64,000 nt of DNA, from contig OZ038451.1 in NCBI GenBank assembly GCA_964036195.1, forward strand, positions 5,770,529 to 5,834,528, written 5' to 3'. Below the pieces are notes generated by a model, which worked only from the letters and a program-made list of their open reading frames with translations, made no database searches and was not told the origin of the DNA. Shown here one piece after another: positions 1,736-18,000 of the stretch (position 1 is its first letter; each line of letters starts with the position of its first letter). The position numbers and the translations under genes are program-made. This stretch comes from Sphaerolaimus hirsutus (lineage: Eukaryota > Nematoda > Chromadorea > Monhysterida > Sphaerolaimidae).

Positions 1736-4700
1736 GTACACTTTTCCGTCGAATCCAGCGAGCTGCGCGACGCGCTCATCCAACTGCAGCACCTTTTTCT
1801 CGTCGCCGCCAAACAAAGTCAAGTAGGAATCTTGAGAACCAGTGGCCCCCTTGGCGCCGCGAAGCCTGCCAGATATTTTGACGATTTTTTGGCCATAAAA
1901 ATGTGTGATTGAGTGAAAATAAAAAGCGACGAAATATACATACAAAAGTAAATAAACTGCCGGTCAATATAAACTGGCTTTCGCTCAAAATTTTTTCAAA
2001 AGTTTGTAGTTCGATCCAGGAATGGAGTTCGGCCAAGGTGTTTGTATTTTTGGATAGCCCTAACATTTGTCTACTCGCACCCCCGGGGGGACCCCTGTGG
2101 CTGCACCCCCTCAGCCACAGGGGTCCCCCCGGGGGTGCGAGTAGACAAATGTTAGGGCTATCCAAAAATACAAACACCTTGGCCGAACTCCCTTCCTGGA
2201 TCGAACTACAAACTTTTGAAAAAAATTTGAGCGAAAGCCAATTTATATTGACCGGCAGTTTATGTGACTTATATTGTATTAGGTAGGTATGTAAATGAGA
2301 TTTACAAATGATAGAAGATCATTAGTGTAGGTTTGGACATATATAAATAAAATCTAAATTTAAATAGTCCATTTTGCACTCACCAAAAAGACGTAGATCA
2401 CTGATCACACTGAAGGCTGCATACATAATCTTACCACACTTTGATGAATAAAATTACTTAAAATCAAATCCACCTAGACAGAATTCTTCATTCAGCTGGT
2501 ATATGGGTAATTTCATCGCAAAGCTTGAGGTCAGTGAACATTAACTCCGCAGAAACACAGCAGTTACGTATGTGATCAAAAAAATCGCACCCCCCCCCCC
2601 GCAATCAACCTGAGGCCCTGGAGCACCCCCTGGACCCCCTTGAACCCCACAAGGAGGGCGTCGATCCACAGACAGGCGCGCTTGCCCACCGTGGTCGCGC
2701 TGGCCGGCTGGTAGTGCGTCCGGCCGCAGGTCGCAGTGTTCAGGTGTTTCAGTGAGAGAGACACCAGGCTGGGGGAGGGGTTGGGGGGTGGTTTGAGGGT
2801 GATTGAAACAACCCCTGGTACCATTCCTACACCCTACCGTGCCATGTAAAATGTCGTGCGAAGTGTCAAAAGAAATGTAAAATGTCTTGAAAAATGTTAA
2901 AAGTACCGTGAACAATAAATTTGACATTCTAGAGGGCATTCTACATGACTTTTGACACATCGCATATGACATTTTACGTTGTCTGTGAGTGGCCCCTAAG
3001 CCCCTAGGTATTCAAGGGAGGAGTTCTGTCAGGTAGAGAGATATTGCGCAAGGCGCTTCATGTTCCAATGGGGGCATCGAGGGTCTAGGTACCCTGGAGA
3101 GTGAGCTCACGCGTCGATGGCCAGGGCGAGCTGCTGGGCGACGTGTCTGAGCGCATCGCGCATGATGATCAGGGGGCAGTCCCACACCCTGTCAAGTGTG
3201 AAGTAAAGTGACAAGTGTCAATCACAGCAAAAAATAAAAAAATTATTAATGAACTTTACATGACAATTGACACTTTACTTAACTTTACATTTGTCATAAT
3301 AATTGACACTTTGCATGACATTTGACACTTTACTTTACACTTTACAGGGTCTGGGATTGGCACCAGGTCGGCGTTGTCCTGCACGAAACACGATGTCGCT
3401 CCTGCGAGATTCACGGTCGGTGAGGAATAATTGATAGTATTGCGGAATGCACTCTTGACTGTAATTGAATCTACCATATGCCACATGAATAATGAACAAA
3501 AATTACGGAATTTACACTTTTCATCAGAATATTCGGTTTCACATGGAGATTATCGAGCACAAACATTACCACACGCCTCGATTCATCTAATTACGATACA
3601 ATTCACAGGAAAGTAAATCTGCTCACACACAAAATAGTAACCAAACATGTAAAAATGTGCACCCCAAACAAGTAGAGCGTGACACCACGGACCCAAGTGA
3701 ATGATGCCCTTGGCCAGGGGGCAATCCCGCTCAAATGCAGCGATGTGCGCCATCACGTCGTGCCGCACTCTGCGCTCCTCGGACTGGATGAAGTCCCAGT
3801 CGATGGGCTTCGACGGGTCCAGCGAGGCCTCCATCGCCAGCACCTGCGCGTGTTAGAGGTGGGTTCCAATCTGTAAATGTCAAGTGTCAAGCAGAATGTC
3901 AATATTCAAGTAAAAATTGACTTTTTTGATTTTTTGATTTTTGACAGTTTGCGTAACATTTAACAGGGTCTGGTGATCGCCCCATGGTCGGGTGATTTGC
4001 CAATAAATTTGTTAAATCACATTGCATACCTTCTCCTCAGTGACACCGGGGACTTTCAACTCGCATTCGGCCCTGGGGCCAATTCCACAAGTTGACAAGT
4101 GGCACTACGTGACAAGTGGTAGGTGAAGGTGACAATAAACGTGGCGTCCGAATATTCGCGAGCGAGAATACCAGACACCAGTTCCAAACCCTGTTAAGTC
4201 AATTGCCCAATCTCAAAAAATTATTACCGTATTACCTCGAAATACCCCCATGGGGGTTTATTATTTCGCCAGCAAAATTTGAGGGGGGGTTAATTCGAGG
4301 GGGGGGGGGGGGGTTATTCGAGGGTTTTTTTTATTATTTCGTCAGAAATTTTCGTGAAATTCATAGTTAAGAATACACGTTTTATAACACAAAAACGGTA
4401 ATAAACTTGAGCAAATAGGTTATATTGGTTCTATAGAAGTACATCTGTACACAAATGAGCGTGTAAGTGTAGCTGCGATGCAAATAAGTAGGAATAAATA
4501 CATCATGTACATTGCATACATGATGTACATCATTCCGGAGGGGGGGGGGGGTATTTCGAGGGGGGGTTATTATTTCCCCAGCCCATTTTGAGGGGGGGTT
4601 AATTCGAGGGGGGGTTAATTCAAGGGGGGGATAATTCGAGGTAATACGGTATTTAACTTAACCTTACATGACAATTCACACTAGACACTTTACGTGATGA

Positions 4701-4978
4701 TTGACAAATGCATCAACGTCGCATGTCATTTGACGCTTGACTTTACTCTTCGCAAGGCACAAGTATACCCTCACCACTCCACCACCACCAACCCACACAC
4801 CAAAAAAAACCCTAGTCAACGTGTGGACTTGGCACCTGGCCAAACAGCACCATAGCCGGCGGACGACGAGCGCCCTGTGGTGCTCGCTGAACAGCTGCAA
4901 GAGGGGGCTGGAGCGGCAGTAGCGCGTCGCCAGCACCGACTCGAACCGCGAGTGCGGCAGGTCCGGCTCGCTGCTCAT
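1736..4978 (-). CDS. ADSL: Adenylosuccinate lyase, N-terminal half (seven exons, partial)
   Basis: Exons in coding order: 4978-4836, 4072-4030, 3843-3693, 3401-3364, 3169-3111, 2768-2610, 1865-1736 (or 1742). They join in one frame with phases 2,0,1,0,2,2,0 and give about 241 of the usual roughly 480 residues; the C-terminal half lies off the left edge. Conserved blocks appear in order: [16 protein letters not shown] joined to [25 protein letters not shown], and [14 protein letters not shown]. These are the substrate-binding and catalytic-histidine regions of the fumarase/aspartase superfamily. The enzyme splits SAICAR and adenylosuccinate in cytosolic purine synthesis and works as a homotetramer. 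The signature GSSxMPxKxN loop is not in the window. Start: first ATG of exon 1, 40 bp below a Harbinger MITE. Introns 1 and 4 are MITE-derived; intron 4 ends in TG instead of AG. Confidence 0.94.
1952..2263. repeat. Near-perfect inverted repeat, arms about 150 bp, loop about 8 bp
   Basis: The left arm starts ATAAACTGCCGGTC; the right arm ends GACCGGCAGTTTAT. The centre reads CTGTGGCTG, a short C-rich loop, then CAGCCACAG. I see only a few mismatches along the arms. It lies in ADSL intron 6 and, if transcribed, would form a long double-stranded hairpin. Such near-identity suggests a recent foldback insertion or ongoing arm correction. No protein is encoded. Confidence 0.85.
2819..2996. mobile_element. 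Foldback MITE in ADSL intron 5
   Basis: Arms carry CCATGTAAAATGTCGTG and its mirror CATATGACATTTTACG around a diverged centre. It has the TGTAAAATGTC repeats of the CAGTCCC/TGTAAAG family. The outer ends are diverged, so the boundaries are approximate. Confidence 0.5.
3174..3363 (-). mobile_element. Foldback MITE forming ADSL intron 4 (noncanonical GT...TG)
   Basis: On the coding strand the element starts GTGCCAATCCCAGACCCTG directly after exon 4 (...GAC CTG) and ends GGGTGTGGGACTGCCC before a second CCTG and exon 5 (ATC ATC). On the + strand the flanks are CAGG at 3170-3173 and 3364-3367, an exact duplication. Inverted repeats match at 15 of the first 20 bases. Both the conserved protein alignment ([12 protein letters not shown]) and the exon phases require removal of exactly this stretch. 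Every equivalent boundary gives a non-GT-AG intron (GT-TG, GG-CT, TG-CC and so on). Known: introner elements in several eukaryotes make introns in this way. Inference: this is such an element. Confidence 0.8.
3864..3983. mobile_element. Short foldback MITE in ADSL intron 2
   Basis: GGTTCCAATCTGTAAATGTC at one end and AACATTTAACAGGGTCTGG at the other form a short hairpin of the TGTAAA/TGTCAAG type. Ends are diverged and no clear target duplication was found. Confidence 0.45.
4077..4835 (-). mobile_element. MITE forming ADSL intron 1 (GT...AG), with nested G-rich element
   Basis: The coding-strand ends are GTGCCAAGTCCACAC at the donor and GTGGAATTGGCCC plus duplicated CCAG at the acceptor. The first 22 bases of the two ends pair at 19 positions. 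On the + strand CTGG flanks both sides (4073-4076 and 4836-4839). Intron ends and element ends therefore coincide, with GT supplied by the terminal repeat and AG by the duplicated target. A G-rich hairpin element (4225-4650) is inserted inside. The right part (about 4655-4760) carries TTTACATGACA-type repeats. Confidence 0.78.
4225..4650. mobile_element. G-rich hairpin MITE (CCGTATT family)
   Basis: The ends are ACCGTATTACCTCGAAATAC and GAATTATC-type complements (...AATTCGAGGTAATACGGT). Inside are repeated AATTCGAGGGGGGG and ATTATTTCG blocks and a poly-G run. It is nested in the ADSL intron 1 element. Other copies or parts: 8081-8416, 12148-13147, 33447-33572, 38123-38213, 50331-52850, 63826-63960. 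Confidence 0.7.
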
Positions 4979-15000: not shown

Positions 15001-18000
15001 ATCCATTATAATGCAAAATTTGGACAACTACCCCCAATTCAAATTTTCACTCTAAACCGGCATTTTACATGACATTCGATGTGTGACATTCTGCATGGCC
15101 CTTCACAAGCTGCGGGACCGTCCCGCGGGACCAAACCCATCGCACCGGCAAATTGTTTCCTGGCGACGAAGTCGAGCATGAGCGCGTCGAGGCCGGAGTG
15201 GGCGGCGAGCACGTCGGCGTGCAGCAGCGTCTGCAGGTAGCTGTTCAGCGCCCGCTTGCGCTTCTCCAAGAAGTCCGGCTGCAGGTTGTTGAACGTCTTC
15301 TTGCCAGGGAAGCCCACGTCGCTCAGCGTGGGGAACTGCGAACGAGCGCTACCGTGTTCGGCGGGAATTGTGGAATTTAGGAATGTAGAGATCAGGGGGT
15401 AGTCCCAGAGTCTGTAAAAGATACTGTGAAGTGTACAAGACCCTGTAAAGAGGAGCCTGTAGCTGTACGCACAGAAACTCGGCACGCACAGAAGCCTGTT
15501 ACGCACAGAAGTTAACTCGGTGCGCACAGAAACTCGGCCCGCACATAGCTGATGCCATGTGCGTGCCGAGTTTCTGTGCCTACAAAGTTTATGTGATTTT
15601 TCACATTCTCTTCTATACTATTCCCTATGTATAGCAGTAGTTGACACCCGAAATTTTGCCAACCGTTACATCTGTTTTCTACATATTTGACTTTCGCGAT
15701 TGCGAATGTAAAATATGTAGAAAACAGCTGTAACAGTTGATGAAATTTCAGGTGTCAACTACTTCAACACACATGAAAATCCTGAACTCAGATGGCCGAC
15801 TTGTCCGACAGGGCCCAGTTGTGTGCGTAACGGGCGTCTGTGCGTGGCGGGTTTTGATTCTGTGCGTAACGGGCGCGTGTGCGTAACGGGTTTCTGTGCG
15901 TAATGAGCCTGGCCCGTAAAGAGTCATGTGTCATGTAAAAGACCCTGTAAAATGTCATGTGTCACGTAAAAAGACCCTGTAAAGTGTCATGTGTCCAAAT
16001 CATATTGTATCGAAATGTTATGTTTTCGTATAGGAATCTTACGGAAAGATTTGGATACAAAAACAGTATATTTGGATACGATACAATAATATTTGGATAC
16101 AAATTGCGTCTTTCACATGGCACACGACTTTTTACAGGGTCTGGGACTGGCACCAGGGATCCAATACCCCCAAACCGACCTTACTCTCGACCATAGCATG
16201 CAGCTTGTGAAAGTCCGAGTACCTCCTGACAACCTCCCATGCGCCGAGCGCCCTGCCGCCGGGCTGCTCAAGCCTGGCGGCGCTGATGTGGTACAGGGCG
16301 AAGGCGGGGGCGCCCTGGCCCGAGCCGGCCGCCCACCCGTCGCGCCCCATGCCGATGCTGGCAATGTGCGCCGCCAGGGGGCACTCCCACAGCGACAGCG
16401 GGGACAGCGACGCCAGCCAGCCGGGGTCCAGGTGCACGCCCCACTGGGGGAGGGGGGTATGTGGGGGTGGGGCTTGCAGTTTGGTGTGCGACAGTGGCTA
16501 CCAGGAATGGAAAACGGGCACATTTTTCAATGGTCCGCTCTTTTTAGAAATCGCATTTTTGCTTTTTTTCAACAAAAATAATGTCCAGACGTTTGTCCAG
16601 AAATACTGTGGCATTACCTCAAAATCCTGCCAAAATAAAAATTTCGCACAAAATAACGAAAACGAACCTCGGTGAGGGTGACCTCCAAACCGCCGTCAGT
16701 TTGAAACGCTGCAAACGAACAGCGATTAATCAATGAACACCAATTTCCACACTCCAATTATCATATCACTAAATCCACTGCAACTAAATATAACAGGGTA
16801 TCAGTATGGGGGTTGGGGGGGGGGGGGGGGTTACCCCCCCACGCGCCAGCTATCTGTCTATCCCCTGAAACAGCACTCCCTCCCTCCCAACCCCTCAACC
16901 GACCGAAGCACTGTTCCCCCTTGGCGATGGCGTCGGCGGCCGGGGCGGCGGGGTCGGGCGGCGCGGCGGGCGCGCACTGGGGCCGCATGTCGGCCAGCAT
17001 GCGTCCGTACAGCGGGTTGCCTCGGAAAGCCGGGTAGAAGCGCACGTCCCGCTCCAGCGTGTCCACCAGCTGAGTGGGGGGTTGTGTGGAATTTGGGCAC
17101 GTGTTGTTTGGGCAGATTCAAATTTCTAAAATAATTCGTGAAGTCTAGGTAGGGTTGGCCGATGTTTTTTTTAAAACGTTTTTTATTAAAAAAAAACGTT
17201 TTTTTACAAAAAAAACATGACGTCCCAAATGTTTTTTTTTAAAAAAAAACATCGACTGAAATTTTTAGTACTACGCACTAGGTATTTTGCAAAAATTTTG
17301 CGCGCAAGCGCGCAATTTCACACACAAATTGACATTGGCGGTTGTTTTAATTGGTTTTGTGGCATTTTTAGTATCAAAGTATCCATTTCTATGTGCTACC
17401 ATGGGTTAATAAGCCGTCATATGTTGCTGTAGTATATAATATTGAGGTAATGTGCTTCCATGTACCTCCACAGTGTGTAACTTCACTCCCAAAGTAACAA
17501 CCTCGTTTTATAACCTTGTTTGATCACTATTCCGTGCCAAACTTTACCTGAAGTCACGAACATTCGACTATAAGGCGATATACGAACGATATGTCGACGA
17601 AAAATGGATATTTTTGACACAAATCACCACTTATAATGCTATCCCATGGCTCCACAGACATTATATGGTCATATATAACATCACAGAGTATTGCCACTGT
17701 CTGATATACCTATATATGTTGACACAAGGTCATATCTGGGAGCTTTAAAAAAAAACGTTTTTTATTAAAAAAAAACGTTTTTTTTTTAAAAAAAACACCG
17801 AGTTAAAAAAAACGTTTTTTTTTTCCAACCCTAAGTCTAGGTCCACCAATTTTTGCAGCATGTTTTCCACTTATCAGAAGTGGAGTTATTAAAGCGGGGT
17901 TTTCAAGGGGTAGTTGTTTCTCCCTCATCCAGCCAACAGGGTGGGGGGGGGGGGGGTTTTCGAGGAGGTGTTATTTAAGGGAAGTCTTATTAGAGGATTG

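Follow-up and report, generated by a model that had tools for sequence, protein, structure and literature searches.

A NuwaI-like transposable element as the source of an ADSL intron with a plausible noncanonical 3' end

How can a gene be read through an intron whose 3' end appears to be TG? The question is raised by the ADSL gene on the minus strand of the window, by which we mean the whole 64-kb stretch of DNA that was analyzed (Table 1). Seven ADSL exons are readable there; the 3' part of the gene runs on beyond the window, and its later exons, including SSAMPYKRNPMRSE, were intact when read by eye. A preliminary description of this DNA had placed the end of exon 4 at GAC CTG and the start of exon 5 at ATC ATC, and we read the same boundaries on the minus strand. 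Joining the two exons exactly at 3364/3169 removes a sequence with GT...TG ends, as had been claimed. The junction is in phase 0, the frame is kept, and neither of the two PDB ADSL alignments shown has a gap at this point. The best PDB match of the ADSL protein is 1yis, and the joined protein matches Pfam Lyase_1 across the exon 4/5 junction. All five of the other ADSL introns readable in the window have GT-AG ends, a count that covers ADSL only. A 240-aa ADSL query searched against the genome gave four match rows, every one at the window locus, and a second ADSL locus was rejected. Elsewhere in the gene, intron 6 contains a near-perfect inverted repeat (window 1952-2263) with arms of 152 nt that are 98% complementary and spaced by 8 nt.

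The sequence between exons 4 and 5 is indeed a foldback element with terminal inverted repeats (TIRs). Compared end against end, the element agrees with itself at 33 of 40 terminal bases, one end reading GGGGC and the other GTGCC, and a genome search showed that the element is a member of a real family. The preliminary description had equated the removed sequence exactly with this MITE. This holds for the element itself, but the intron also includes one duplicated CTG triplet. The target duplication had been given as 4 bp (CAGG/CCTG), which we rejected: the family shows a 3-bp CWG duplication, here CTG, and the extra right-hand C belongs to the CCCC end of the element. It remains correct that no shift inside the duplicated bases yields GT-AG.

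Table 1. Features of the ADSL gene and of the element in window coordinates (a slash marks a splice junction)
Feature	Position	Strand	Remarks
ADSL exon 1	4836..4978	-	reading of window
ADSL intron 1	4073..4835	-	763 nt, CAG/GTGCCAAG...GGCCCCAG/
ADSL exon 2	4030..4072	-	reading of window
ADSL exon 3	3693..3843	-	reading of window
ADSL exon 4	3364..3401	-	window reading and PDB alignment
CTG target duplication, 5' copy	3364..3366	-	last codon of exon 4
ADSL intron 4, exons joined exactly	3170..3363	-	194 nt, GTGCC...CCCCCTG (GT...TG)
NuwaI-like MITE (assignment from sequence fit)	3173..3363	-	191 nt; GTGCCAATCCC end on 5' side, GGGACTGCCCC end on 3' side
Internal AG, 19 nt ahead of intron end	3189..3190	-	predicted paired (probability 1.00) in TIR stem; acceptor in the main rival explanation
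CTG target duplication, 3' copy	3170..3172	-	would be the final three intron bases
ADSL exon 5	3111..3169	-	window reading and PDB alignment
ADSL exon 6	2610..2768	-	reading of window
ADSL exon 7	1739..1865	-	3' end approximate
Second TIR copy in window, CTG on both sides	15396..16153	-	758 nt; by eye within an intron of a sorting-nexin-like gene

A search of the genome (348 Mb, 762 contigs) for the family yielded 2638 first-look candidates, 40 of them scored, and 86 match rows. Among 151 end-pair records, counted strand-wise so that one copy may count once per strand, CTG was repeated exactly at offset 0 in 44 and CAG in 41, and the CWG triplet duplication was seen on inspection of 36 loci. 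Because CTG or CAG repeats exactly at both element ends, the target is CWG, 3 bp long. According to the available sections of PMC4482050, a CWG target is the mark of the animal NuwaI group within the PHIS superfamily, whose TIRs measure 12-61 bp and usually start with GGG. Autonomous partners in this group have a DDE transposase and a Myb/SANT protein. By its sequence, the ADSL element fits this Harbinger-related group: it shares the CWG duplication, the long TIRs and the Harbinger-type relatives. The gene content of the genome looks animal-like. Of the two ends of the element, one starts with GGG and the other with GTG, which puts a splice donor at the junction; the NuwaI sections consulted are silent on introns.

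Other traces of such elements lie in the window. The ends of ADSL intron 1 are a related TIR (20 of 24 bases match), and with its CAG duplication the configuration is a canonical GT-AG. A family copy at 9-203 on the plus strand has CAG on its left and no matching right triplet. Matches to DDE_Tnp_4, a Harbinger-type transposase fragment at about 341-831 on the plus strand, were kept separate from the MITE.

Four configurations are possible along a gene. With the GTG end on the left, insertion at CAG gives GT...AG and insertion at CTG gives GT...TG, and flipped copies give GG...AG or GG...TG. Because the family inserts at CWG, its copies form matched versions whose 3' splice sites are set apart by a single base. 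A search for the element at other exon junctions, which had been proposed as a check, recovered copies in coding exons of several other genes. We list 13 coding-exon insertions at CAG with exact GT...AG ends. When 10 joined CAG junctions were compared with Pfam, hits at E<=0.01 were obtained for 6, with 4 above the curated cut-off (PLP decarboxylase, Phe-tRNA synthetase, channel ligand-binding domain and intermediate filament) and L059 and L063 below it; the other 4 had no Pfam hit. Given these GT-AG sisters, the earlier view of the ADSL intron is well supported in its first half, the origin from a MITE; its second half, a noncanonical 3' end, is plausible from the sequence.

Insertion at CTG with GT...TG ends was found in four coding exons, those of ADSL, a P450, an M4 peptidase and an aminotransferase-like gene. 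The Pfam match of the M4 peptidase extends well across the junction, and that of the P450 extends only 2 residues beyond it. The aminotransferase-like gene was recognized by eye from exon pieces that were also joined by eye, and its later exons, downstream of the junction, match Aminotran_1_2. We excluded from this list L080 (CTG..CCG), L082 and L099 (both CTG..CAG) and L088 (one T lost), and we left off L035 (IQ_SEC7_PH) because its left end reads AT and the junction lies just upstream of the match. Pfam gave no hit for L077, a flipped insertion in a possible aquaporin-like gene, nor for L024 and L082, and returned only sub-threshold matches for L080 (RIFIN, taken as chance) and L099 (SKICH). 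These exonic counts are not a census, since coding flanks were judged from joined translations by eye and from a codon score, and 20 chosen junctions were sent to Pfam. By this score, at a threshold of 4 and in the GT-left sense, 7 of 20 CAG..CAG records were coding versus 1 of 23 CTG..CTG records (ADSL); genes of lower GC content, among them the P450, M4 and aminotransferase-like genes, escape it. L004 (C6:17519280) and L008 (C6:17527012), two channel-receptor-like genes separated by about 8 kb, carry related copies that differ by 7.1% at the same coding position, which looks as if the intron had been duplicated along with the gene.

The preliminary description had allowed no other join of the ADSL exons. 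This was too strict, as several joins keep the frame by using an AG, though with residues gained or lost. The element may be the intron and yet be spliced at an AG, either at the internal AG with a shifted donor, giving 7 (GC-AG), 14 or 18 (both GT-AG) or more TIR-coded residues, or at one of two exonic AGs, 36 and 39 bases past the junction, with the loss of 12-13 residues. All these joins are in frame, and those checked are free of stops. In the available parts of the respective papers, human AG-to-TG mutants activate neighbouring AGs (PMC2374985) and some introners elsewhere add codons upon insertion (PMC9860276). Additionally, the copy in an ABCD-transporter-like gene (L088) has a 3' CTG that seems to be missing its T, which brings the internal AG into frame with 6 added residues; this T loss is a possible second way of repairing the 3' end. 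The AGs nearest to the ADSL TG lie 19 nt upstream and 23 nt downstream, which fits either a TG used with the help of an AG or the use of an AG itself.

Several observations nevertheless speak against AG splicing. Both ADSL alignments shown run without a gap at this position, and the same internal AG is apparently skipped in the CAG introns of coding exons. Indeed, 10 of the 13 coding CAG introns have an AG 19-20 bases ahead of the terminal AG, which must be skipped because its use would shift the frame; of the other three, two have an AG at 18 bases, in frame, and one has none there (offsets were read allowing the one-base offsets of L059 and L033). If these genes work, the terminal AG would be chosen over the nearer internal one. 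An AG is kept at the internal offset in 67 of the 87 extracted element records. Folding placed it in the TIR stem, with a mean predicted pairing of 0.46-1.00 in the nine CAG introns with an AG exactly there and of 1.00 in ADSL (fold z-scores were based on 30 shuffles). The result agrees with a fold in which the internal AG is concealed and which, by analogy, would favour use of the element end in ADSL; it is likewise consistent with the earlier suggestion that a hairpin may help splicing. Furthermore, the M4 and P450 copies are without such an AG: none occurs among their last 60 intron bases, and the first downstream AGs are 32 and 44 nt on. Among acceptors no further on than the junction, none gives M4 an in-frame GT/GC-AG join and none gives P450 one that adds fewer than 28 residues, so that M4 would need its exonic AG at +39, whose use would delete 13 residues. 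We regard AG splicing of the ADSL intron as unlikely, while giving it the first place among the rival explanations.

We then compared the triplets on the two sides of near-intact copies across the whole genome, requiring exact ends and set lengths. In total, 162 copies had any CNG pair; read left to right, 70 were CAG..CAG, 57 CTG..CTG, 27 CTG..CAG and 2 CAG..CTG. The two discordant classes would be equal under neutrality, and their 27:2 ratio (p = 1.6e-6, an optimistic value because some CTG..CAG sites are close pairs, such as C4:22139914/22159406 and C13:17094189/17110143) shows that AG is favoured over TG at the 3' end. Purifying selection could keep CAG..CTG rare but would not on its own raise CTG..CAG, which points to repair of CTG..CTG by a T-to-A change. 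The skew thus suggests that the 3' end is repaired to AG and that TG is at best tolerated, and many sister copies look as though they had been repaired by this single change. Among the seven CTG..CAG copies in hand, L082 is coding by score, L099 has the SKICH match below cut-off and L095 adjoins an ELO exon; the other four gave no coding sign in the tests applied. The L095 copy starts 6 bases past a possible older donor (GCAG/GTGCGT) at the end of this ELO-family exon.

Since TG ends are disfavoured to this degree, the ADSL copy might also be a damaging or poorly spliced allele, polymorphic or hypomorphic in the sequenced individual, with function provided by another allele or by leaky splicing; the P450 and M4 copies would then sit in decaying family members. 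Both of these belong to gene families, and M4 has an intact paralog that reads through the insertion site without a stop (108 of 109 query residues). However, ADSL was found at one locus and its other exons are intact, and the exons adjoining the insertions in the P450, M4 and aminotransferase-like genes are intact where seen. Nor does divergence mark the ADSL copy as young. The insertion had been called recent, but the copy differs from the consensus by 7.6%, a value within the range of the 53 records in its group (6.1-14.6%), and its nearest neighbour among the extracted records is 9.8% away (a second group comprises 34 records that differ from the consensus by 24-33%, backward-read copies among them). 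The sequence thus gives no sign of young age, although part of the divergence may predate the insertion. Overall, we consider a damaged allele doubtful, and place it behind AG splicing.

Two further explanations received much less weight. A base error or local misassembly could conceal a junction that in reality has an AG, as one base decides between TG and AG and another part of the window, read by eye, shows two apparent frame shifts. The latter fall in a stretch of about 70 bases inside the sorting-nexin-like gene (window about 18210-18140, minus strand) and may reflect sequencing error, a tiny intron or real damage. In the family, however, the CTG..CTG arrangement is common and regular, as the 57 near-intact copies show, and it follows from the CWG target, which makes an error at the ADSL junction improbable. 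The element could also be removed from DNA rather than from RNA, by precise excision in the tissue that expresses the gene. TIR ends with a short duplication would permit this, but the AG skew is confined to the 3' end and the fit to GT-AG at CAG targets is exact, both of which argue for RNA splicing; we take excision to be the least probable of all.

Exact GT-TG splicing of a transposon-born intron is therefore our best reading of the ADSL locus. We hold it at a little short of an even chance, ahead of both AG splicing and a weak or damaged allele. According to this reading, a NuwaI-like MITE behaving as an introner would have inserted into the ADSL coding sequence at a sense-strand CTG. The element would provide the donor (/GTGCC) and a 3' end rich in C, and the duplicated target triplet would contribute the last intron bases, so that a CAG target gives GT...CAG and a CTG target GT...CTG. 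Through pairing of the inverted ends in the RNA, the two exon junctions would come to lie at the foot of a stem that also encloses the internal AG 19 bases upstream, and the spliceosome would then join the exons exactly, via TG. We infer three things here: expression of ADSL from this allele, genuine use of the TG in 3' splicing and a role for the hairpin. Use of the TG is probably inefficient. The fuller version, in which splicing is constitutive and the TG serves as the only 3' site because end pairing keeps the internal AG out of reach and offers the junction instead, with selection from TG to AG visible in the family, we advance more tentatively than exact GT-TG splicing itself.

The ADSL intron belongs to a kind already known from introners, Amoebophrya elements, Fritillaria introns and human TG sites. 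According to the available sections of PMC7789003, non-canonical introns, supported by RNA, make up more than 60% of all introns in the dinoflagellate Amoebophrya. The introner elements described there resemble ours in having inverted repeats near the intron ends, direct repeats of 3-5 nt over the junctions, non-GT-AG ends and a suggested hairpin; they differ in that non-canonical introns form the majority there, whereas the other ADSL introns in our window are GT-AG and our case is read from genomic sequence. The larvacean Fritillaria shares with our case non-AG 3' intron ends in an animal, and about 95% of its introns break the GT/AG rule (PMC13326754, in the sections available). In Fritillaria U2AF subunits are duplicated; in this genome one clear U2AF2 locus was seen: an exon-by-exon search with TIGR01642 gave 15 match rows, with several good pieces at one locus and none over the cut-off, and the same model gave a weak signal in 2 of 14 control genomes. 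There is thus no sign of a Fritillaria-type change as far as U2AF2 is concerned. Human TG 3' sites, as treated in the available text of PMC2374985, are never the sole site but always an alternative to an AG within 28 nt. They are TGs used as 3' sites in U2-type introns, as proposed for ADSL, which has an AG within this limit; M4 and P450 have none within 28 nt on either side.

The closest relatives are the introners, which in the available sections of PMC9860276 are introns born from DNA transposons that recruit splice sites from the target duplication. As in our family, a non-autonomous TIR element with target duplications enters the coding exons of several genes, the donor lies in the element and the acceptor is completed by the target. 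The AG at which introners usually end, which we do not treat as defining, is absent from the ADSL copy, which has CTG at 3172-3170. In the open-licence papers searched we found neither a paper linking NuwaI elements to introns nor one on an element that targets CWG and so gives rise to AG and TG introns as matched versions. New introns must persist until they have acquired good splice sites, and how they do so is an open question; this family allows the AG requirement, the apparent T-to-A repair and the role of end pairing to be tested in one genome. What sets it apart from introners is that the 3' end is TG at CTG targets, with matched AG and TG versions in a single family known here from genomic sequence; its CAG-landed sisters look like ordinary introns, and the family as a whole offers a natural experiment in how much deviation splicing can accept.
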